A DNA stretch of 64,000 nt from a candidate division WOR-3 bacterium (GTDB taxonomy: Bacteria; Hydrothermota; Tepidihabitantia; SM23-42): NCBI GenBank assembly GCA_011052815.1, contig DRIG01000072.1:1-64000 (forward strand). Direction: 5' to 3'. The notes under the pieces are model-generated. The model was not told the origin of the DNA, made no database searches, and worked only from the letters and a program-made list of their open reading frames with translations. Positions 13,065-45,065 of this stretch are shown piece by piece. The position numbers were made by a program, and so were the translations under genes. The stretch's first letter is position 1. Every line of letters starts with the position of its first letter.

Positions 13065-13092
13065 TTGACAGCAGTAAAAATCTACATATAAT
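13065..13092 (+). promoter_or_regulatory. Consensus sigma-70 promoter of the polysaccharide locus
   Basis: TTGACA (13065-13070), 16-bp spacer, TATAAT (13087-13092). It lies 38 bp after the small ORF and drives the ops-like leader and the receiver-PAS gene, presumably continuing into the flippase and glycosyltransferase genes. Confidence 0.8.
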
Positions 13093-13095
13093 TAC

Positions 13096-13155
13096 TTAGA
13101 TGTGGTTTTCCGGATGTCAGTGTGTAACTGACAAAGCGGTAGCTTAAGAGTCTAA
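13096..13155 (+). promoter_or_regulatory. ops/JUMPstart-like leader element 1
   Basis: Shortly after the promoter, TTAGA (13096-13100) and TCTAA (13151-13155) can close an outer stem. Inside are a hairpin GTCAGT-gtgta-ACTGAC (13116-13132) and, 2 nt later, AGC-GGTA-GCT (13135-13144), which contains GCGGTAGC. The enterobacterial ops element is GGCGGTAGCNT. It pauses RNA polymerase and recruits the NusG paralogue RfaH in leaders of long polysaccharide operons, exactly the context seen here. A second copy with compensating base changes lies at 28230-28304. No rfaH-like gene is in the window. Confidence 0.55.
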
Positions 13156-13228
13156 AAATGGCTTGTTGCATGCCGGGCGACAGGGTGAAAAGTCAAGATT
13201 TGATGCGGAATTAACAGGAGGCAGGAAG

Positions 13229-14350
13229 ATGAAGGCAAAAATTTTTGTTGTCAGTCAGGACAGCGATCTTGTGAAGGCAATAACCGAGACCCTTGAGGTT
13301 GAAGGCCATAATGTTACGCCGATCGACCTCCCTGATACAGCTCCCACAAAGTGTAAAGATGAAGGTGTTGATCTGGTGTTCCTGGATGTTTATATACGTG
13401 ATGTCCCCTATGACAGGTTGATAAAGGATATCAAGAAGGCATCTCCTGATACTGAAATCGTCGTGGTGACGACCTATGCCTTTCCTGAGAGTATGGCAAA
13501 AGGAGCGGTGCTCGATATTCAGGGATACCTTATTAAACCGTTGACTCAGGATAAGATCAGACACGTCGCCACCCGTGCTTTGCGTCAGGGTGAGCTTGCC
13601 CGGGAGAACCGACGTCTGCTCCTTGCCGTAACCGCGGCGAAAAAGGAATGGGAAGCAACAGTGGATGCAATCGAGGACCCGATCTTTGTCACTGATTTTG
13701 ACTATAATATCTTACGGGCAAATCTCGCGACTTTCCAGGCACTGGGTAAGGGCGTGAATGAGGTGATCGGCCATAAGTGCTATGAAATATTCCATTGTTC
13801 AGACCATGCGCTGGACTATTGTCCGGGAAAGGTCGCAAGGGACAGCGGTGAACCGGCGACCGAGACGATTGCTTTCCGGGGATTGAAAGAACGTTTTAAC
13901 TGCAGTGTTTATCCTCAGGTTTTTGCTTCGGGCGGAGGCCTGGTTCATTATCTGAGGGCACCGGCGGTCAATGCAGAACAGCAGGCAGAGACCATGACCA
14001 AATACGAACGTCTCTTTGACGACGCCCGTATTCCTATTCTTTTCATCACTTCAGAGGATTACAAGGTGACGGATGCGAATCAGAAGGCGATTGAACTTTT
14101 CGGCTATGAACCCGAGAAGATATTTGATATGGATCTGGAAAATCTCTTTGCTGCTTCGTTGCGCGAAAGCGTAATCAATAATATCATCCAGCAGACCGAG
14201 AATAACGAAGCGCCTCTGAAGACGAAAATTATCGACTGTAACGGAAAAGAGATAGACGCCTTTGTGGTCGCCAACCCGATCGAAATAAACAAGAATATGT
14301 TTATTCAGATATTCATAATCCCGACCGATTTGCTGAGCGGCGGCAGATAG
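13229..14350 (+). CDS. Receiver-PAS-PAS regulatory protein
   Basis: 373 aa from ATG 13229, chosen for AGGAGG 8 bp upstream; an earlier in-frame ATG (13163) lies inside the leader RNA. The receiver domain covers residues 1-115, with phospho-acceptor D53 (LVFLDVYIRD) and K103 (YLIKPLT). Two PAS domains follow, about 145-245 and 262-365. The first has a cysteine cluster (HKCYEIFHCSDHALDYCPG), possibly redox- or metal-responsive. There is no histidine kinase, GGDEF or DNA-binding output, so it probably acts through protein contact. As first gene after the ops-like leader it may tune the polysaccharide locus. Confidence 0.75.
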   Translation: MKAKIFVVSQDSDLVKAITETLEVEGHNVTPIDLPDTAPTKCKDEGVDLVFLDVYIRDVPYDRLIKDIKKASPDTEIVVVTTYAFPESMAKGAVLDIQGYLIKPLTQDKIRHVATRALRQGELARENRRLLLAVTAAKKEWEATVDAIEDPIFVTDFDYNILRANLATFQALGKGVNEVIGHKCYEIFHCSDHALDYCPGKVARDSGEPATETIAFRGLKERFNCSVYPQVFASGGGLVHYLRAPAVNAEQQAETMTKYERLFDDARIPILFITSEDYKVTDANQKAIELFGYEPEKIFDMDLENLFAASLRESVINNIIQQTENNEAPLKTKIIDCNGKEIDAFVVANPIEINKNMFIQIFIIPTDLLSGGR

Positions 14351-28176: not shown

Positions 28177-28205
28177 TTGACAACCACGTGAAAAATGGCT
28201 ATAAT
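28177..28205 (+). promoter_or_regulatory. Consensus sigma-70 promoter of the acyl-CoA dehydrogenase/ETF operon
   Basis: TTGACA (28177-28182), 17-bp spacer, TATAAT (28200-28205), followed by a leader of about 165 nt with the second ops-like element before the ATG at 28377. Confidence 0.8.
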
Positions 28206-28229
28206 TAATGGCTTGCTGAATATCTATCT

Positions 28230-28304
28230 AACCAATCACAATGGTCAGCTGGTCTTGGTTGTTTCAATGTAGCTGACAACGGCGGTAGCCTGCCCGGATT
28301 GGTT
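28230..28304 (+). promoter_or_regulatory. ops/JUMPstart-like leader element 2
   Basis: AACCAATC (28230-28237) and GATTGGTT (28297-28304) close an 8-bp outer stem. Inside, GTCAGCT (28244-28250) pairs with AGCTGAC (28271-28277). Three nucleotides later comes GGC-GGTA-GCC (28281-28290), containing GGCGGTAGC, identical to the core of the enterobacterial ops element. Compared with element 1 at 13096-13155, the inner stem and the GGTA-loop stem differ by compensating changes (GGC/GCC versus AGC/GCT), which argues for a conserved nucleic-acid structure. It heads a metabolic operon, not a polysaccharide one. Confidence 0.55.
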
Positions 28305-28376
28305 GATTATTCTGTTGTATTTTTCACTTCTCTGTAATTCATAATTTAATAACTAAATCACTGGCAAAGGAGGTTT

Positions 28377-29486
28377 ATGGCATTAATCAATTTCAACAAC
28401 GAGCAGAAACTTATCGAGAATGAGATAAGAAAATTCGCTCAAAACGAACTTGAGCCTTTATCAGCCGAGATTGATAAAGAAGGAGTATTCCCGGCGGAAC
28501 TTATAAAGAAGTTATTCGATCTGGGATTTTTTAATCCATCCATTCCGGAAAAATACGGCGGTGCCGGTCTTGACGCCACGAGTCTCTGTATCATTCTTGA
28601 AGAGTTATCCAGAGTATGTGCCTCGATCGGGACGATCATCGTGGCGAACAACTGTTTGGTTTCTTACCCGTTAATGAAGTACGCGCCGCTTGAAAAGAAG
28701 GAGCATTATCTCGGCAGGCTCGGCAGGGGAGAGATCGGCGCTTATTCAACGCTGCCCCAATTCGATTCTGAAAACAATGAGATGGAATTAAAAAAGGCGA
28801 ATGAAAGTGTCGTAATCAGAGGGAAGAGGAGTTTTGTTTTGAACGGCGAAGCCGGTGATATTTTTGTTCTTCCTTTTTCCTCGGCGGAGAAAATTTCGCT
28901 CTGCATATTCAACAAGACGGACGGTGTTGAGTTGAATAAACAGAATATTCTTGGTTTAAGGGCGGCGGGTATCACCACTTTTGAAACAGCGGGGATTGAG
29001 CTGTCGTTGACCGATTGCGTCTGCTGCGATGTAACTGTCGAGGATTTCTTCAAAGAAGTGCAGGCGTTTGCGAGTATCGGTTTTTCCGCTGTGCTTCTTG
29101 GAATCGCCGAGGCGGCGTATGACAACTCGGTGAAGTATTCAAAAGAGCGTAAACAATTCAAACGCGCAATTTGTGAATTCCCCATGGTGCAGCAGATGCT
29201 TGTCGATATGAAGACCAGAATCACTGCATTGAGATTGATGGTGTATGAAGCCGCAAAGAAATTTGATTGTGGAGAACCTTATGTAATGGCGGCTTATCTT
29301 GCGAGACTCTACGCAGGAGAAGCCGCGGTCTTCGCCGGAACCAATTCGATCCAGATCCACGGCGGCTACGGATATACAAAAGACTATCCTGTAGAGCGTT
29401 TTCTTCGGGATGCCAAATCACTACAGGTGCTGGAGCTGCTGCCTATGGAAGCGGTTACCAGGAGCGTAAAGGAGATTTTAGCATGA
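28377..29486 (+). CDS. Acyl-CoA dehydrogenase-like subunit without catalytic base
   Basis: 369 aa. The N-terminal helices (FNNEQKLIENEIRKFAQNEL, PEKYGGAGLD) and C-terminal HGGYGYTKDYPVERFLRDAK are typical of the family. The usual TEPNAGSD segment is replaced by TLPQFDSENN, and the catalytic EGTSEIQK motif by ELLPMEAVTR. The alternative base position used by isovaleryl-CoA dehydrogenases is also not conserved (VQAFASIGF where the siblings have LDVSR). AAAGGAGG precedes the ATG, and the gene overlaps the next dehydrogenase by 4 bp. This suggests a structural or FAD/CoA-binding partner in a heteromeric enzyme. Confidence 0.8.
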   Translation: MALINFNNEQKLIENEIRKFAQNELEPLSAEIDKEGVFPAELIKKLFDLGFFNPSIPEKYGGAGLDATSLCIILEELSRVCASIGTIIVANNCLVSYPLMKYAPLEKKEHYLGRLGRGEIGAYSTLPQFDSENNEMELKKANESVVIRGKRSFVLNGEAGDIFVLPFSSAEKISLCIFNKTDGVELNKQNILGLRAAGITTFETAGIELSLTDCVCCDVTVEDFFKEVQAFASIGFSAVLLGIAEAAYDNSVKYSKERKQFKRAICEFPMVQQMLVDMKTRITALRLMVYEAAKKFDCGEPYVMAAYLARLYAGEAAVFAGTNSIQIHGGYGYTKDYPVERFLRDAKSLQVLELLPMEAVTRSVKEILA

Positions 29487-30619
29487 TACTGGACGAGAAA
29501 TATATTAAATTCAGAGAGTCGGTGAGGGATTTCGCCGAGAAGGAAGTGGCACCCCGGGCAAAAGAGCTTGATATGAAAGATCAATTCCCCTGGGACCTGG
29601 TTAAGCGAATGGCGGAGTTAAAACTTCTTGCCCTTTACGTGCCTGAAGAATACGGCGGTGCAGGGCTTGATGTACTTTCTTATGCACTTGCGGTCGAGGA
29701 GATCGGCCGTATCTGCGGTTCAACCGGGATCTTTCTCGCCGCCCATTCTTCACTCGGGGTTTATCCTCTGTTTGTTGCCGGTTCTGAAGAGCAGAAACAG
29801 AAATATCTTATTCCCTTGGCGCGCGGTGAAAAAATCGGTTCGTTCGGCCTTACTGAGCCGAATGCAGGAAGCGATGCCGCAGGGACCCAGACCACGGCGA
29901 AACTGGTGGGCGATCATTATGTTGTCAATGGAACAAAACGGTTTATCACTTCCGGTGGGGTTGCGGATATCATCGTTTTCACCGCGACAAAGGATCCTGC
30001 AATGGGATATGCCGGAATCTCTGCTTTTATCGTGGAAAAGGGCACCCCTGGTTTTTCAGCGGGCAAAGAAGAGGACAAACTCGGTTTACGCGGTTCAATT
30101 ACCTCTGAACTTATTTTTGAAGACTGTAAGATACCTCGTGAGAATCTTCTCGGTAAAGAGGGTGAGGGTTTTAAGGTTTTTATGCAGACCCTTGACGGCG
30201 GCAGAATTTCCATCGGGGCGCTTGCCCTTGGAATCGCCCAGGGAGCGCTTGACGCTTCAACGGATTTTGTCAGGAAACATACAAAGAACGGAAAACCGCT
30301 TTACAAAATGCAGGCGGTTCAGGATATGATCGCTCAAATCGCGACCGAGATAGAAGCGGCGCGGCTGCTTATTTACAAAGCGGCGATGCTCAAAGACCGC
30401 GGGTTACCTTACACCAAAGAAGCGGCGATGGGAAAATATTATGCTTCGCATATCGGTATGCGGGCGACCAGTACGGCGATCACCATTCACGGGATGATGG
30501 GATTGACCAAGGATTATCCTGTTGAGCGATTTATGCGTGACGAAAAACTGATGGAGATCGGAGAAGGAACATCGGAGATTCAGAAGATCGTTATCGCAAG
30601 GCAGATTTTAGGAAAGTGA
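29483..30619 (+). CDS. Acyl-CoA dehydrogenase (catalytic partner)
   Basis: 378 aa from ATG 29483, which overlaps the previous stop (ATGA) and has AAAGGAG upstream; the longer frame from 29267 is not needed. It keeps FGLTEPNAGSDAAG, KRFITSGG, the FAD-region HGMMGLTKDYPVERFMRD and the catalytic glutamate in GEGTSEIQKIVIARQ. It oxidises an acyl-CoA to the 2-enoyl-CoA, passing electrons to ETF. Coupling to the catalytically incomplete gene upstream suggests a heteromer. The substrate cannot be read from sequence. Confidence 0.9.
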   Translation: MILDEKYIKFRESVRDFAEKEVAPRAKELDMKDQFPWDLVKRMAELKLLALYVPEEYGGAGLDVLSYALAVEEIGRICGSTGIFLAAHSSLGVYPLFVAGSEEQKQKYLIPLARGEKIGSFGLTEPNAGSDAAGTQTTAKLVGDHYVVNGTKRFITSGGVADIIVFTATKDPAMGYAGISAFIVEKGTPGFSAGKEEDKLGLRGSITSELIFEDCKIPRENLLGKEGEGFKVFMQTLDGGRISIGALALGIAQGALDASTDFVRKHTKNGKPLYKMQAVQDMIAQIATEIEAARLLIYKAAMLKDRGLPYTKEAAMGKYYASHIGMRATSTAITIHGMMGLTKDYPVERFMRDEKLMEIGEGTSEIQKIVIARQILGK

Positions 30620-30774: not shown

Positions 30775-31917
30775 ATGAACTTTGATTTAACCAATGATCA
30801 GAAGATGCTGCAGGATCAGGTAAAGAAGTTTGCTGAAGCGGAATTGGCTCCTGTAGCTCCTGAAATTGATAAATCAGGTGAATTTCCCTGGAAGAATATC
30901 AAGAAGATGGCTGAACTGGGGCTTCTCGGTATCATTGTTCCTGAAGAATACGGTGGTGCAGGATTTGATTTTGTATCTCTGGCGATCGCGATTGAAGAGA
31001 TTTCACGGGTTTGTGCAAGTACCGGCGTGATTGTCGCGGTGAACAATTCCCTGGTTTCATATCCGATTCTTCAGTTCGGAACCGAGGAACAGAAGAAAAA
31101 ATATCTTCCCCTGCTGTGCAGCGGAGAAAAGTTGGGAGCAATGGGAATTACCGAACCGAACGCCGGTTCAAATGTCGCCGGGATGGAAAGTTTCGCCCGC
31201 CTGGAAGGCGACCACTATATACTGAACGGCACCAAACGTTTCATTACCAACGGCGGTGAAGCGGGTATCTTTGTGGTATTTGCATATACAAACAAAGAGA
31301 TGAAGCACAAAGGAATCAGTGCCTTTATCCTTGAACGGGATATGCCCGGTTTTACACTTGGAAAGCATGAAGACCTGATGGGGATAAGGGCGACCGCGAA
31401 TTGCGAATTGATCTTTGAAGATGTTAAAGTGCCGAAAGAGAATCTTCTCGGTAAAGAGGGTGATGGTTTTAAGATCTGTATGAATACCCTGGATGTATCA
31501 CGTATCGACATCGGTGCTCAGGCAGTGGGAATCGCTCAGGGTGCATTTGAGGAAGCGATAAAGTATTCCAAAGAGCGGCAGGCATTCGGACAGCCGATAT
31601 GTAATTTTGAGATGATTCAGTCGATGCTTGCGGAGATGGCTACCCAGATTCAGGCGGCACGGCTGTTGGTGTATTATGCAGGGTATTGCAAGGATAAAGG
31701 GCTGCCGAGATTTTCCAAAGAGTCGGCGATGTCGAAATATTATGCGGCTACCATGGCCGTTGATGTTACACGTAAAGCGGTTCAGATCCACGGCGGCTAT
31801 GGGTATACAAAGGATTATCCTGTGGAAAGGATGTATCGCGACGCCAAAATCCTTGAACTCTATGAAGGAACATCAGAAATCCAGAAGATTGTCATTGCTC
31901 GGGATCTGGTGAGATAA
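30775..31917 (+). CDS. Acyl-CoA dehydrogenase (butyryl/short-chain type)
   Basis: 380 aa with all family marks: MGITEPNAGSNVAG, KRFITNGGEAG, HGGYGYTKDYPVERMYRDAK and the catalytic glutamate in YEGTSEIQKIVIARDLVR. AAGGAGG lies 5 bp before the ATG. It resembles the short-chain Bcd-like enzymes that use an adjacent ETF, and etfB starts 57 bp downstream. With three dehydrogenases the operon can treat several acyl-CoAs (butyryl, isobutyryl, isovaleryl); which enzyme does what is not resolved. Confidence 0.92.
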   Translation: MNFDLTNDQKMLQDQVKKFAEAELAPVAPEIDKSGEFPWKNIKKMAELGLLGIIVPEEYGGAGFDFVSLAIAIEEISRVCASTGVIVAVNNSLVSYPILQFGTEEQKKKYLPLLCSGEKLGAMGITEPNAGSNVAGMESFARLEGDHYILNGTKRFITNGGEAGIFVVFAYTNKEMKHKGISAFILERDMPGFTLGKHEDLMGIRATANCELIFEDVKVPKENLLGKEGDGFKICMNTLDVSRIDIGAQAVGIAQGAFEEAIKYSKERQAFGQPICNFEMIQSMLAEMATQIQAARLLVYYAGYCKDKGLPRFSKESAMSKYYAATMAVDVTRKAVQIHGGYGYTKDYPVERMYRDAKILELYEGTSEIQKIVIARDLVR

Positions 31918-31974: not shown

Positions 31975-32748
31975 TTGGAGATTGTTGTCTGCATAAAGAG
32001 GGTGGCTCAAACAGCTGAAGCCGATCTTAAGGTCGATGACACCGGCAAGGATATTATAAAAGACCGTTTAACATTTGATATGAATGAATCAGACACCTAT
32101 GCCCTTGAAGAGGCGATTCTTTTGAAGGAAAAACACGGCGGTAAGGTGACGGTTGTTTCTCTGGGTTCTGTAGATGCTGAGGATACACTGCGGATAGCTC
32201 TGGCAAAAGGTGCGGACCAGGCGATCCGAATCAAAGAAGAGGATTTCGGAGACCTCGATGGTTATAAGACGGCGCAGCTCTTGAGCTCTGTGATAAAAGG
32301 GCTTACATTTGACATCGTCCTTACAGGTTGTATCGCCACTGATGATTATTATTCACAGGTCGGCGTGGCTCTTGCCGAACTGCTCGGCATTCCACACGCC
32401 ACCCTGGTTACAAAGCTGGAATTCACTGACGGAAAAATCGATGCCTATCGCGAACTTGAAGGAGGATTGCTTGAACACCTTGAAATCAAACCACCTGCTC
32501 TGTTCACGATTCAAACCGGAATTAATGAGCCACGCTATGCTTCCCTGATCGCCATCAGAAGAGCCGCCAAAAAAGAGATCGAGGTTAGGGGGAAGAACGA
32601 AATTCCGGTTGAAGGTATAGCGGCGCAGTCGATACTTGAAGAGCTTTACACACCGCCGGTCGGAAAACGGGCTGAGATGCTTACTGGAACCCTGGATGAG
32701 ATTGCGGCGAAATTCGGCAGTATCATAAAAGAAAAAGGGCTGCTTTAA
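31975..32748 (+). CDS. etfB: Electron transfer flavoprotein beta subunit
   Basis: 257 aa, starting at TTG 31975 with AAGGAGG 5 bp upstream. Family marks are EIVVCIKRVAQTAEADLKVD, DMNESDTYALEEAILLKEKH, VVSLGSVDAEDTLRIALAKG and the signature TGCIATDDYYSQVGVALAEL. It forms the soluble ETF with the following alpha subunit (14-bp gap) and accepts electrons from the acyl-CoA dehydrogenases encoded upstream. Confidence 0.95.
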   Translation: MEIVVCIKRVAQTAEADLKVDDTGKDIIKDRLTFDMNESDTYALEEAILLKEKHGGKVTVVSLGSVDAEDTLRIALAKGADQAIRIKEEDFGDLDGYKTAQLLSSVIKGLTFDIVLTGCIATDDYYSQVGVALAELLGIPHATLVTKLEFTDGKIDAYRELEGGLLEHLEIKPPALFTIQTGINEPRYASLIAIRRAAKKEIEVRGKNEIPVEGIAAQSILEELYTPPVGKRAEMLTGTLDEIAAKFGSIIKEKGLL

Positions 32749-32762
32749 GAGAGGAGGTTGAG

Positions 32763-33746
32763 ATGGCTGATGTTTTCGCACTGGTTGAGCACCGGCAGGG
32801 GAGTATCAGGGATATAACCTATGAACTGCTTACCTGCGGCAGAAAAGCGGCGGCAGACGTCGGTGGTAAACTTACCGCAGTTGTACTGGGATACCAGACC
32901 GAGAAGTTTATTGAAAGCTTGAAGACCAGGGCAGACCGTATCCTTGTTGTTGACAATGAGGTCTTTAAAGAATTTAACGCCGAGACATATCAGATAACAC
33001 TCGCTGAAATTTTAAAGAGATATAACCCTCTTATCACCTTGATCGGACACACTGCTTCTGGTATGGATATCTGTCCGTCACTCGCTGTTCAGATGAATCT
33101 GCCTTTTACCACTGATTGCCTTGGCCTTGAGGTGAAGGGGCAGGAGCTTTGGGTGACCCGTCAGATGTATGACGGAAAATTGAATGCGCGCGTACGCCTG
33201 CAGGAGAGCGGTTCTTACATTCTTACCATACGCAGCGGATGTTTCCCCGCTGAGGATTCTGGTTTGAGTGCGGAGATAGAGAGGTTTGAACCACCGATTA
33301 CTGCTCAACCTGAATACCGTAAGTTCATTGAGTATGTCGAGGCCGCGGTTGGTGAGGTCGATATTACAAAGGCGGACATTGTCGTGAGTGTGGGGAGAGG
33401 AATTAAAGAGCAGTCGAATCTTCCGGTAATAGAAGATTTCGCTTCGGCGATCGGCGGAGTCCTGGCGTGTTCAAGGCCGATCGTTGACGCCGGCTGGCTT
33501 CCCAAAGACAGGCAGGTGGGTTCTTCGGGAAAGACGGTGAAACCAAAGGTATATATTGCCCTGGGTATTTCAGGTGCATTTCAACACCTTGTGGGAATGA
33601 AGGGTTCTGATACCATCATTGCGGTCAATAAAGACCCCAATGCTCCGATATTCAATGAAGCCGATTACGGGATTGTCGATGATCTCTTTAAAGTCGTCCC
33701 TGTACTGAAGAACAAAATCATGGAATTGAAGGAAATGAAAGGATAG
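32763..33746 (+). CDS. etfA: Electron transfer flavoprotein alpha subunit
   Basis: 327 aa. The C-terminal FAD domain has SVGRGIKEQSNLPVIEDFAS, SRPIVDAGWLPKDRQVGSSG, YIALGISGAFQHLVGMK and AVNKDPNAPIFNEADYGIV. The start follows AGGAGG. No ferredoxin-like N-terminal extension is seen. It passes electrons on, probably to the FeS oxidoreductase encoded 5 bp downstream. Confidence 0.95.
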   Translation: MADVFALVEHRQGSIRDITYELLTCGRKAAADVGGKLTAVVLGYQTEKFIESLKTRADRILVVDNEVFKEFNAETYQITLAEILKRYNPLITLIGHTASGMDICPSLAVQMNLPFTTDCLGLEVKGQELWVTRQMYDGKLNARVRLQESGSYILTIRSGCFPAEDSGLSAEIERFEPPITAQPEYRKFIEYVEAAVGEVDITKADIVVSVGRGIKEQSNLPVIEDFASAIGGVLACSRPIVDAGWLPKDRQVGSSGKTVKPKVYIALGISGAFQHLVGMKGSDTIIAVNKDPNAPIFNEADYGIVDDLFKVVPVLKNKIMELKEMKG

Positions 33747-33751
33747 AAATA

Positions 33752-34930
33752 ATGGGCAGTTCAATAAGAATAAATCCTGAGATTCGGGATACAATCATCG
33801 AGTCAGGTGGGGAAGACGTTGTCAAATGTTATCAATGCGGGCGGTGTATGCCGGCATGCCCGTGGAATCTTCTCGACAACCTGAATTATACTACCTACCG
33901 TTTCTGTCAGCGAATAAAGCTCGGTGCGATAATCGACGGCGAGAAGAAAGAGGATGTGGCTACAGACACCATAGAGGTATTCAGATGCGTGGGGTGTGAC
34001 AGTTGTCTTCATGAATGTCCGCGTGGTATAAATCTGTCTGATATCCTGCGCGCCGTGCGCAGAATCTTGGTCGATTACGATTCATATCCGGCAGAGTTGA
34101 AGAGTGTGGTATCACGACTTTACAGTTCAGGTAACCCCCTCGGAGAACCGGCAGAGAATCGGGGGGATTGGGCAGAGGGATTGGGTCTTGTCCGGTTTGA
34201 TGAATCATGCGAGTATTTGTATTTTCCCTGCTGTATTCCCTGTTATGACGCCCGCGCCCGTAAGGTCGCTCAGGCTACTGCCCGAATTCTGAAACAGGCT
34301 AATGTCAGGTTCGGCATAATCGGTGAGCAGGAATTTTGCTGTGGTGAGGCGGTAAGAAGGGTCGGTGCTGAAAAAGTTTATCAAACCGCGCGCGACACCA
34401 ACCTGAAGTTGTTCAAAAAATTCTCAGTGAAGAAAGTGCTGACGACTTCACCGCATTGTTATAAAGTATTCAAGGAAGATTATCAGGAAGAGGACGGCGA
34501 ACTCGAGGTATTACATATTTCCCAGCTCTTTTATCGATTGATTAAGGAAAAAAGATTGACTCCTGAAAAGGAATTCAATAAGACAGTGGTATATCACGAC
34601 CCCTGCACACTCGGCAGACAGATGAGTGTCTTTGATGAACCCCGGGAAGTGCTGAAGAGCATCCCCGGTTTAAAACTCGTTGAGATCCCGGTCTTCAACC
34701 GGGAATTCAGTGTATGCTGCGGCGCCGGTGCTATGGGTCTATGGCGTGATTGGCCTCAGGATGAGCGGTTGACCAATCTGCGGATAGAACAGATTCTGCG
34801 TACCGGTGCAGAGGTGCTTGCCGTTGCCTGCCCTTATTGTCTTCAGATGTTTGAAGAGACTCTGAAGTCAATGAAGATAGAGATGCCGGTGATGGATATC
34901 GCAGAGATCCTTATGCAGTCAACATTGTAA
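33752..34930 (+). CDS. ETF-linked FeS oxidoreductase with CCG domains (HdrD/GlpC-like)
   Basis: 392 aa soluble protein. Two 4Fe-4S motifs (CYQCGRCMPACPW, CVGCDSCLHECPRG) lie in the first 110 residues. Two CCG domains follow: CCIPCYDARARK with FCCGEAVRR, and HDPCTLGRQ with CCGAGAMG and CPYC. CCG domains bind noncubane clusters in heterodisulfide reductase and relatives. It is last in the operon after etfA, so it is the likely electron outlet of ETF, toward quinone, a disulfide or another FeS partner. There is no membrane segment, so any membrane coupling needs another protein. Confidence 0.85.
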   Translation: MGSSIRINPEIRDTIIESGGEDVVKCYQCGRCMPACPWNLLDNLNYTTYRFCQRIKLGAIIDGEKKEDVATDTIEVFRCVGCDSCLHECPRGINLSDILRAVRRILVDYDSYPAELKSVVSRLYSSGNPLGEPAENRGDWAEGLGLVRFDESCEYLYFPCCIPCYDARARKVAQATARILKQANVRFGIIGEQEFCCGEAVRRVGAEKVYQTARDTNLKLFKKFSVKKVLTTSPHCYKVFKEDYQEEDGELEVLHISQLFYRLIKEKRLTPEKEFNKTVVYHDPCTLGRQMSVFDEPREVLKSIPGLKLVEIPVFNREFSVCCGAGAMGLWRDWPQDERLTNLRIEQILRTGAEVLAVACPYCLQMFEETLKSMKIEMPVMDIAEILMQSTL

Positions 34931-44489: not shown

Positions 44490-44987
44490 ATGGCTTATAT
44501 CGTCAGAGTTGATGATAAAGAATTTAAAGTGGAACTGAAAAAAGAGGGCAAAGATTATAAAGTGCTGATCAACGGTCTTGAAAAGAATGTCGGATTTGTA
44601 GCCGGCGGAGAAAGAAGGTTGAGTTTTGTGGTTGATAATAAACCGTTTGACGTCGTCTTTGAGTCGGACGGGCGGGTTACAGTCGCAGATCAAGGATACA
44701 GTGTAGAGATCTTTGATGAACAGATTCAGAAGTTGATAAAAGTCGGTCCTGAAAAGAAGCATAAAAAAGAATTCGTGCTCAAGGCATTGATGCCCGGTTT
44801 GATAATCCGGGTCGAGGTTAAAGAAGGTGAAGAGGTGGTTGAGGGTCAGGGGCTTCTTGTCATCGAAGCGATGAAGATGCAGAACGAACTGAAGGCCCCG
44901 GGAAAAGGAGTCGTGAAAAAGATCTTTATCAAAGAGGGGCAGACCGTGAACAGCGGCGACACCCTGTTGGTAGTTGACAGATATTAA
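44490..44987 (+). CDS. Biotin carboxyl carrier protein (propionyl module)
   Basis: 165 aa. The C-terminal 75 residues are a biotinyl domain with the target lysine in VIEAMKMQNELKAPGKG. The N-terminal 90 residues are beta-rich and probably bind the carboxylase subunits. It begins 2 bp after the biotin carboxylase stop and completes a three-gene carboxylase (41362-44987). Confidence 0.92.
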   Translation: MAYIVRVDDKEFKVELKKEGKDYKVLINGLEKNVGFVAGGERRLSFVVDNKPFDVVFESDGRVTVADQGYSVEIFDEQIQKLIKVGPEKKHKKEFVLKALMPGLIIRVEVKEGEEVVEGQGLLVIEAMKMQNELKAPGKGVVKKIFIKEGQTVNSGDTLLVVDRY

Positions 44988-45065
44988 AATATGTGTAAAA
45001 TTTACCACGGGAATTTCGCTGCTGTAAAGTTTGGTGGACAAAACTATACTAAAGAGGAGGTATAG

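Follow-up and report, generated by a model that had tools for sequence, protein, structure and literature searches.

We found that the acyl-CoA dehydrogenase/ETF/FeS operon of a candidate division WOR-3 bacterium is preceded by a leader which is probably, judging from its sequence, a JUMPstart/ops-type control element that would load an UpxY-family NusG paralogue for transcription through long operons. The leader lies in a stretch of 64,000 nucleotides, which is called the window here. In its general form it consists of a consensus promoter, a GTCAG[T/C]...[A/G]CTGAC hairpin and then AANGGCGGTAGCNT, and the motif recurs among 41 related genomes. Our analysis established the element itself and how far it is conserved, the covariation of its inner stem, the operons it precedes, the clade to which it is limited and the presence of a paralogue. 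The parts of the leader are as follows.

28177-28205, + strand: sigma-70-type promoter of the acyl-CoA dehydrogenase operon, TTGACA-N17-TATAAT, with 12/12 consensus matches (TTGACA at 28177-28182, TATAAT at 28200-28205)
28244-28251, + strand: 5′ arm of the conserved hairpin (GTCAGCTG), from the sequence and from a stem that covaries in 50 aligned sites
28270-28277, + strand: 3′ arm of the conserved hairpin (TAGCTGAC), from the sequence and the covarying stem
28278-28291, + strand: AAC-GGCGGTAGCCT, spacer and putative ops-like pause/recruitment core, conserved in 51 sites of the order
28366-28373, + strand: ribosome-binding site AAAGGAGG of the first acyl-CoA dehydrogenase gene, read from the sequence

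Transcription is predicted to start at about 28212. The 3′ arm is followed by AACGGCGGTAGCCT, with the core at 28281-28289 and the ATG of the first gene 87 nt further; GGCGGTAGCC is read at 28281-28290, and in the numbering of ops G1 is 28281 and T11 is 28291. The core of this leader matched our covariance model with 45.6 bits, and no intrinsic terminator was recognised on the + strand of 28177-28376.

The first-pass annotation had described this leader as repeating the layout of another one about 13 kb into the window, and this was confirmed: the parts at about 13065-13146, upstream of a polysaccharide locus, stand in the same order as those at 28177-28376.

13065-13092, + strand: promoter TTGACA-N16-TATAAT of the polysaccharide locus leader
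13116-13132, + strand: first copy of the hairpin, GTCAGT-GTGTA-ACTGAC
13133-13145, + strand: first copy of the ops-like core, AAAGCGGTAGCTT, matching the covariance model with 43.5 bits

This copy of the core precedes a response-regulator/PAS gene and polysaccharide genes. The pattern CTGACAAN(1-2)GCGGTAGC has two matches in the window, while about 7e-5 are expected when both strands and both spacers are summed. A match at C30:11615 of the same genome, where the hairpin is absent, was set aside as a chance match.

The phylum-wide sample comprised 147 WOR-3 genomes, in all of which a reversed-pattern control gave zero matches. The exact motif was present in 27/27 genomes of the window's order (families f1 and f2) and in 0/120 of the others, at only 1-4 sites per order genome. 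Scores of at least 31 bits with the covariance model, which was built from 42 sites, were obtained solely within the order, and the best score outside it was 18.9 bits. An 18-base version of the motif gave 25 matches among 84,980 bacterial and archaeal species, 23 of them in WOR-3. The matches in Pseudomonas flavescens and in a Verrucomicrobiales genome, where a comparable context is absent, look like chance; a collection of this size, 257 billion bases, should yield a few such matches. At most sites in the relatives the upstream promoter has 11-12/12 consensus matches, and its distance to the hairpin differs between sites. A literature search on WOR-3 and antiterminators found nothing.

The inner GTCAG..CTGAC hairpin is part of the layout that had been proposed as a selected structure, and its stem does covary over the related genomes. 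Among 44 distinct rows, changes on both sides were found at 4/7 pairs, and 23 cells were changed on both sides versus 13.6 after shuffling, in a count for which the arms were excised and joined with the loops omitted and the 5′ arm was taken to be whichever stretch paired best with the 3′ arm, a choice that biases toward pairing. The covariation score was 0.165 versus 0.108 for shuffled rows (0/500 shuffles as high), and covariation was lost when the partners were slid. The 5′ arm is GTCAG or a one-step variant at nearly all sites. Of the distinct rows, 20 have U-A and 15 have C-G at pair 6; in the leaders of orthologous acyl-CoA dehydrogenase operons this pair is U-A in genera g3, g5, g12 and g13, and C-G in genera g1, g2, g4, g6 and g11. 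Moreover, in two orthologous leaders not found by the exact search the stem is preserved by double changes, GTTAGC/GCTAAC in G003 and GTCAAT/ATTGAC in G025. Taken together, the inner hairpin is real and carries genuine compensating changes.

The hairpin loops are variable, and their range of 3-40 nt favours RNA over a protein operator. With their inverted arrangement close to a strong promoter, the repeats might also be the half-sites of an operator to which a dimeric repressor or activator binds, the GTCAG...CTGAC dyad forming its two halves and GGCGGTAGC belonging to it. However, a spacing of 3 to 40 bp between half-sites is hardly tolerable for a dimeric operator, the changes in the stem are compensatory and the promoter distance varies, and we regard such an operator as highly improbable.

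In 48/51 sites, a hairpin of at least 5 bp is separated from G1 of the core by 3 nt, or rarely by 2. Core positions 2-9 are identical across sites, which is partly due to the choice of search pattern, and the identity extends to the two leaders that were recovered through their orthologous operons. Most sites have G at position 1, position 10 varies, T11 is present in 50/51 sites and a purine (A/G) occupies position 12 in 45/51, G12 being found in 13. The core is fixed where the flanking leader sequence has diverged, and the region 3′ of it is unconserved. A conserved core adjoining a conserved hairpin in 5′ leaders, one class of whose targets is metabolic, would also be compatible with a riboswitch or another ligand-binding RNA, in which the core GGGCGGUAGC senses a metabolite common to acyl-CoA and polysaccharide metabolism. 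Nevertheless, the unconserved region 3′ of the core leaves no common expression platform, the RNA has a single short conserved helix with an unconserved outer stem, a relevant Rfam match is absent, and the core equals a known pause/recruitment element, all of which makes a riboswitch very unlikely.

Other structural claims of the annotation did not extend to the relatives. Around GCGGTAGC, the two copies in the window do differ by the paired change from A-T to G-C (AGC/GCT to GGC/GCC), but core positions 1 and 10 pair in 40/51 sites versus 38.8 after shuffling (p=0.32). Zuber et al. (PMC5995543) held that the C3:G8 pair of ops may form in a real complex and took the outer G2:C10 pair for a probable crystal artefact; therefore, the absent 1-10 covariation is not evidence against an ops function. 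The outer stem AACCAATC/GATTGGTT, also taken for a selected feature, is present at the 28 kb leader and unconserved elsewhere: the best outer pairing over 50 sites has a mean of 7.24 bp versus 7.34 bp with shuffled flanks, which is the level of chance.

We classified 48 sites automatically by their downstream genes. The orthologous acyl-CoA dehydrogenase 1-2-3/EtfB/EtfA/FeS-CCG operon follows 21 of them; 12 lie at polysaccharide synthesis loci, nine of which are headed by a response-regulator/PAS gene as at 13163; and 2/48 are in other contexts. The remaining 13 lie at polysaccharide export operons, which encode an OmpA/carboxypeptidase-regulatory outer-membrane protein and Wza-like and Wzc-like proteins, the Wzx-, Wza- and Wzc-like names in relatives being based on Pfam hits in the window and on reading of the sequences rather than on scans of each relative. 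The response-regulator/PAS gene (13163-14350) and its orthologues often head polysaccharide loci in this order, and it is an unusual first gene there.

The ops-like leader was found upstream of orthologous acyl-CoA dehydrogenase operons in 20 genomes besides the window, which together represent 10 genera and the two families that make up the order, and an independent motif search and a protein search agree on this association. In genus g10 (G009 and G013) the operon is present and the leader is absent within 450 bp, and in G007 the contig ends too early. Four genomes that are more than 90% complete (G012, G016, G018 and G019) have a single convincing site, which is at this operon; in G018 a masked gap inside the first operon gene cuts the sequence off. 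The acyl-CoA dehydrogenase/ETF/FeS operon is the most consistent target of the leader. In the window it immediately follows the polysaccharide locus, and the leaders of both resemble each other, as they would if shared ancestry alone had carried an old polysaccharide-locus leader along to a place where it is functionless. This explanation has, in our view, scarcely any probability, since the leader is kept at the operon throughout those genera and families with paired stem changes, is the only convincing one in the four genomes above, and retains a fixed core within diverged flanks.

The operon comprises the following genes.

28377-29486, + strand: acyl-CoA dehydrogenase homologue 1, the first gene, with its ATG at 28377 (Pfam PF02771, PF00441)
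29483-30619, + strand: acyl-CoA dehydrogenase 2, whose start overlaps the stop of gene 1 (Pfam and sequence)
30775-31917, + strand: acyl-CoA dehydrogenase 3 (Pfam)
31975-32748, + strand: electron transfer flavoprotein beta subunit, EtfB (PF01012)
32763-33746, + strand: electron transfer flavoprotein alpha subunit, EtfA (PF00766, PF01012)
33752-34930, + strand: iron-sulphur/CCG-domain protein, an HdrD/GlpC-like electron carrier (PF02754, Fer4)

In a C-terminal alignment, homologue 1 lacks the EGT(S/N)EIQ motif bearing the catalytic glutamate, which is present in acyl-CoA dehydrogenases 2 and 3 of all genomes aligned, and it may be a non-dehydrogenase partner. The nearest NCBIfam family of acyl-CoA dehydrogenase 3 is acryloyl-CoA reductase AcrC, with a score below the cut-off. 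Genus g6 (L101, L104, L106, L109 and L099) has an extra gene between EtfA and the FeS gene; its product, of 650-1110 aa, reads like an HdrA/glutamate-synthase-type flavoprotein with ferredoxin domains, which suggests a different electron exit in that genus.

In the window, genes for glutamyl-tRNA synthetase, MeaB, methylmalonyl-CoA mutase and carboxyltransferase lie 3′ of the FeS gene, and the stretch behind the operon ends with TTGACA-N16-TAAAAT at 44974-45001, the next site that resembles a strong forward promoter. This gene order and the position of that site are compatible with a transcription unit as long as 17 kb, which would be a long operon of the kind served by factors of the NusG paralogue type. 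Typical RfaH targets are without a good ribosome-binding site; the first acyl-CoA dehydrogenase gene has a good one, which counts against RfaH-like control.

A candidate reader of the leader is encoded in the same genomes. Order genomes have a housekeeping NusG and a second NusG-type protein, and the class relatives searched have one NusG at most, except G027. The second protein is a stand-alone UpxY-family paralogue, found at or above the UpxY cut-off in 24/27 order genomes, and the three genomes without it are at most 89% complete. Two members scored 117.4 and 112.3 bits against the UpxY model (NCBIfam NF033644, cut-off 100 bits), and 76.9 and 80.0 bits against the RfaH model (NCBIfam TIGR01955), below its cut-off of 144.5. 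Neither NusG-type protein of the window's genome passes the RfaH cut-off, and the paralogue is also below the LoaP cut-off. The first-pass annotation had raised a dependence of the leader on a NusG paralogue, which would fit the presence of this protein, yet the co-occurrence of motif and paralogue is not independent proof, because both are clade-wide and amount to one evolutionary event. The paralogue is highly conserved in the order. In most genomes its gene is beside trpS, away from the sites and with no motif nearby, and a protein encoded alone in this way would need a signal to find its targets. In G000, G003 and G027 the gene adjoins an outer-membrane/envelope protein gene related to cluster c4, the family heading the export operons.

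We compared the paralogue with RfaH at the residues that matter for ops reading. Position 10 is basic (R/K) in 19/21 members, as is K10 of RfaH, and I93 is kept, while L/I, D/E and P stand in place of the ops-contact residues H20, R23 and R73; Q24 is replaced as well, K24 being conserved. Where RfaH depends on E48 and F130 for its autoinhibition, the paralogue has R and L. It has conserved basic residues of its own (R/K10, K24, K68 and R71) on the face used by RfaH, and K68 and R71 are absent from the housekeeping NusG. The paralogue might read ops DNA differently, or might read an RNA hairpin as LoaP does. A structure prediction, aimed at whether the C-terminal domain forms a helical hairpin as in free RfaH, gave a poor model (pLDDT 44.9) in which this domain hints at strands only.

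Outside the order, 17 WOR-3 genomes (e.g. G055, G052 and G142) also have UpxY-family paralogues but no leader motif, so the UpxY family as a whole does not imply the leader signal. The ops core as a phylum-wide signal for UpxY paralogues was likewise rejected: outside the order, AAGGGCGGTAGC is not enriched and is rarer than the reversed control. The leader could be the same general pause/antitermination signal but recruit the housekeeping NusG/NusA or another protein, with the UpxY-family paralogue working elsewhere, for example on envelope genes near its own locus. The 17 genomes would agree with this, as would the replacement of most ops-reading residues of RfaH and the c4-related neighbour of the paralogue gene in three genomes. 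However, the motif is absent from class-level relatives that have the housekeeping NusG only, and the stand-alone, highly conserved paralogue keeps its four basic positions on the RfaH-used face, which leads us to consider recruitment of another factor unlikely.

For loading of the UpxY-family paralogue we propose the following course, in which pausing, paralogue binding and antitermination are inferred from likeness and association. RNA polymerase would start at the strong promoter, and the leader RNA, which is about 80 nt long ahead of the acyl-CoA dehydrogenase operon and about 47 nt long ahead of the polysaccharide locus, would form the small hairpin. On reaching the ops-like GGCGGTAGCNT the polymerase would be expected to pause, and the paused polymerase would be loaded with the stand-alone paralogue, guided by the hairpin, by the non-template ops bases or by both. 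The paralogue would then travel with the polymerase and prevent early termination over the long operon. The regulon would have 1-4 members, drawn from polysaccharide synthesis, polysaccharide export and the acyl-CoA dehydrogenase/ETF/FeS operon.

We put forward more tentatively, at somewhat under even chances, that a composite signal of RNA hairpin and ops pause recruits an UpxY-family paralogue in WOR-3, and that, among its targets, an acyl-CoA dehydrogenase/ETF electron-transfer operon, rather than an envelope or antibiotic operon, is the most conserved. If this were true, the LoaP mode (RNA hairpin) and the RfaH mode (ops), known separately, would be combined, and ops recognition would either be much older than RfaH or have evolved twice. 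A 2019 review stated that no recruitment mechanism was known for NusG paralogues other than RfaH (PMC6391919), and a 2020 review that the recruitment modes of paralogues encoded inside their own operons, such as UpxY, were unknown (PMC7593976); the work on LoaP and its RNA hairpin came after those reviews (PMC12691694). The leader offers a candidate signal for an UpxY-family protein that is defined to the base, occurs in 1-4 copies per genome and shows natural covariation, which makes UpxY-family recruitment directly testable. To our knowledge, control of this kind has so far been tied to capsules, adhesins, toxins, conjugation and antibiotics. Here, a metabolic operon would be placed under capsule-type control, and the ops core is found in a phylum far from Proteobacteria, beside a non-RfaH paralogue. 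The earlier claim that an ops-like leader is attached to this operon stands, as related genomes carry the motif upstream of the orthologous operon and the inner hairpin covaries, and it falls as regards the closing-pair argument and the outer stem. The architecture is known from RfaH and JUMPstart; the novelty lies in the lineage and the paralogue family, and most of all in the metabolic target.

The ops element of E. coli is GGCGGTAGCGTG, a 12-mer in which G4, G5, A7 and G8 serve recruitment and T11-G12 pausing. The WOR-3 core AANGGCGGTAGCNT matches it at 10 of the first 11 positions: GGCGGTAGC and T11 are identical, position 12 is a purine, and the genome also encodes a stand-alone NusG paralogue. 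The polymerase of E. coli pauses at U11, and TG at positions 11-12 is common to the validated RfaH targets (PMC5995543); T11 and the purine at 12 in WOR-3 agree with this. In contrast to RfaH, the WOR-3 paralogue is placed in the UpxY family by curated models and is without most of the ops-contact and autoinhibition residues.

The JUMPstart RNA (RF01707) of enterobacterial polysaccharide operons is a promoter-proximal 5′ leader of the same kind, with a hairpin, then GGGCGGUAGC and a downstream T, and polysaccharide operons follow it as they do at the WOR-3 polysaccharide sites. In the Rfam scan the E. coli rfb leader, our positive control, matched JUMPstart with 60 bits and showed the hairpin and then GGGCGGUAGCGUG, whereas neither leader of the window matched RF01707 at the gathering threshold or at E up to 10, nor anything else relevant. 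The JUMPstart stem is CUGGU/GCCAG and the WOR-3 stem GTCAG/CTGAC; the distance from stem to GGCGGTAG is 1 nt in JUMPstart and 3 nt in WOR-3; and the WOR-3 leader differs further in its variable loop, in its phylum and in standing also on a metabolic operon.

With the UpxY family of Bacteroides capsule operons the WOR-3 system shares a paralogue above the NF033644 cut-off, with polysaccharide operons among its likely targets. However, the WOR-3 gene is on its own, mostly beside trpS, and not inside a target operon, and WOR-3 adds a candidate recruitment site with a defined sequence. The LoaP/dfn system of Bacillus velezensis likewise involves a small leader RNA hairpin, a downstream pause, a NusG paralogue and long operons (PMC12691694). 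Its hairpin is UNCG-type and that of WOR-3 is not; in the WOR-3 leader, where no intrinsic terminator was recognised on the + strand, the hairpin directly adjoins the predicted pause element, which is ops-like.
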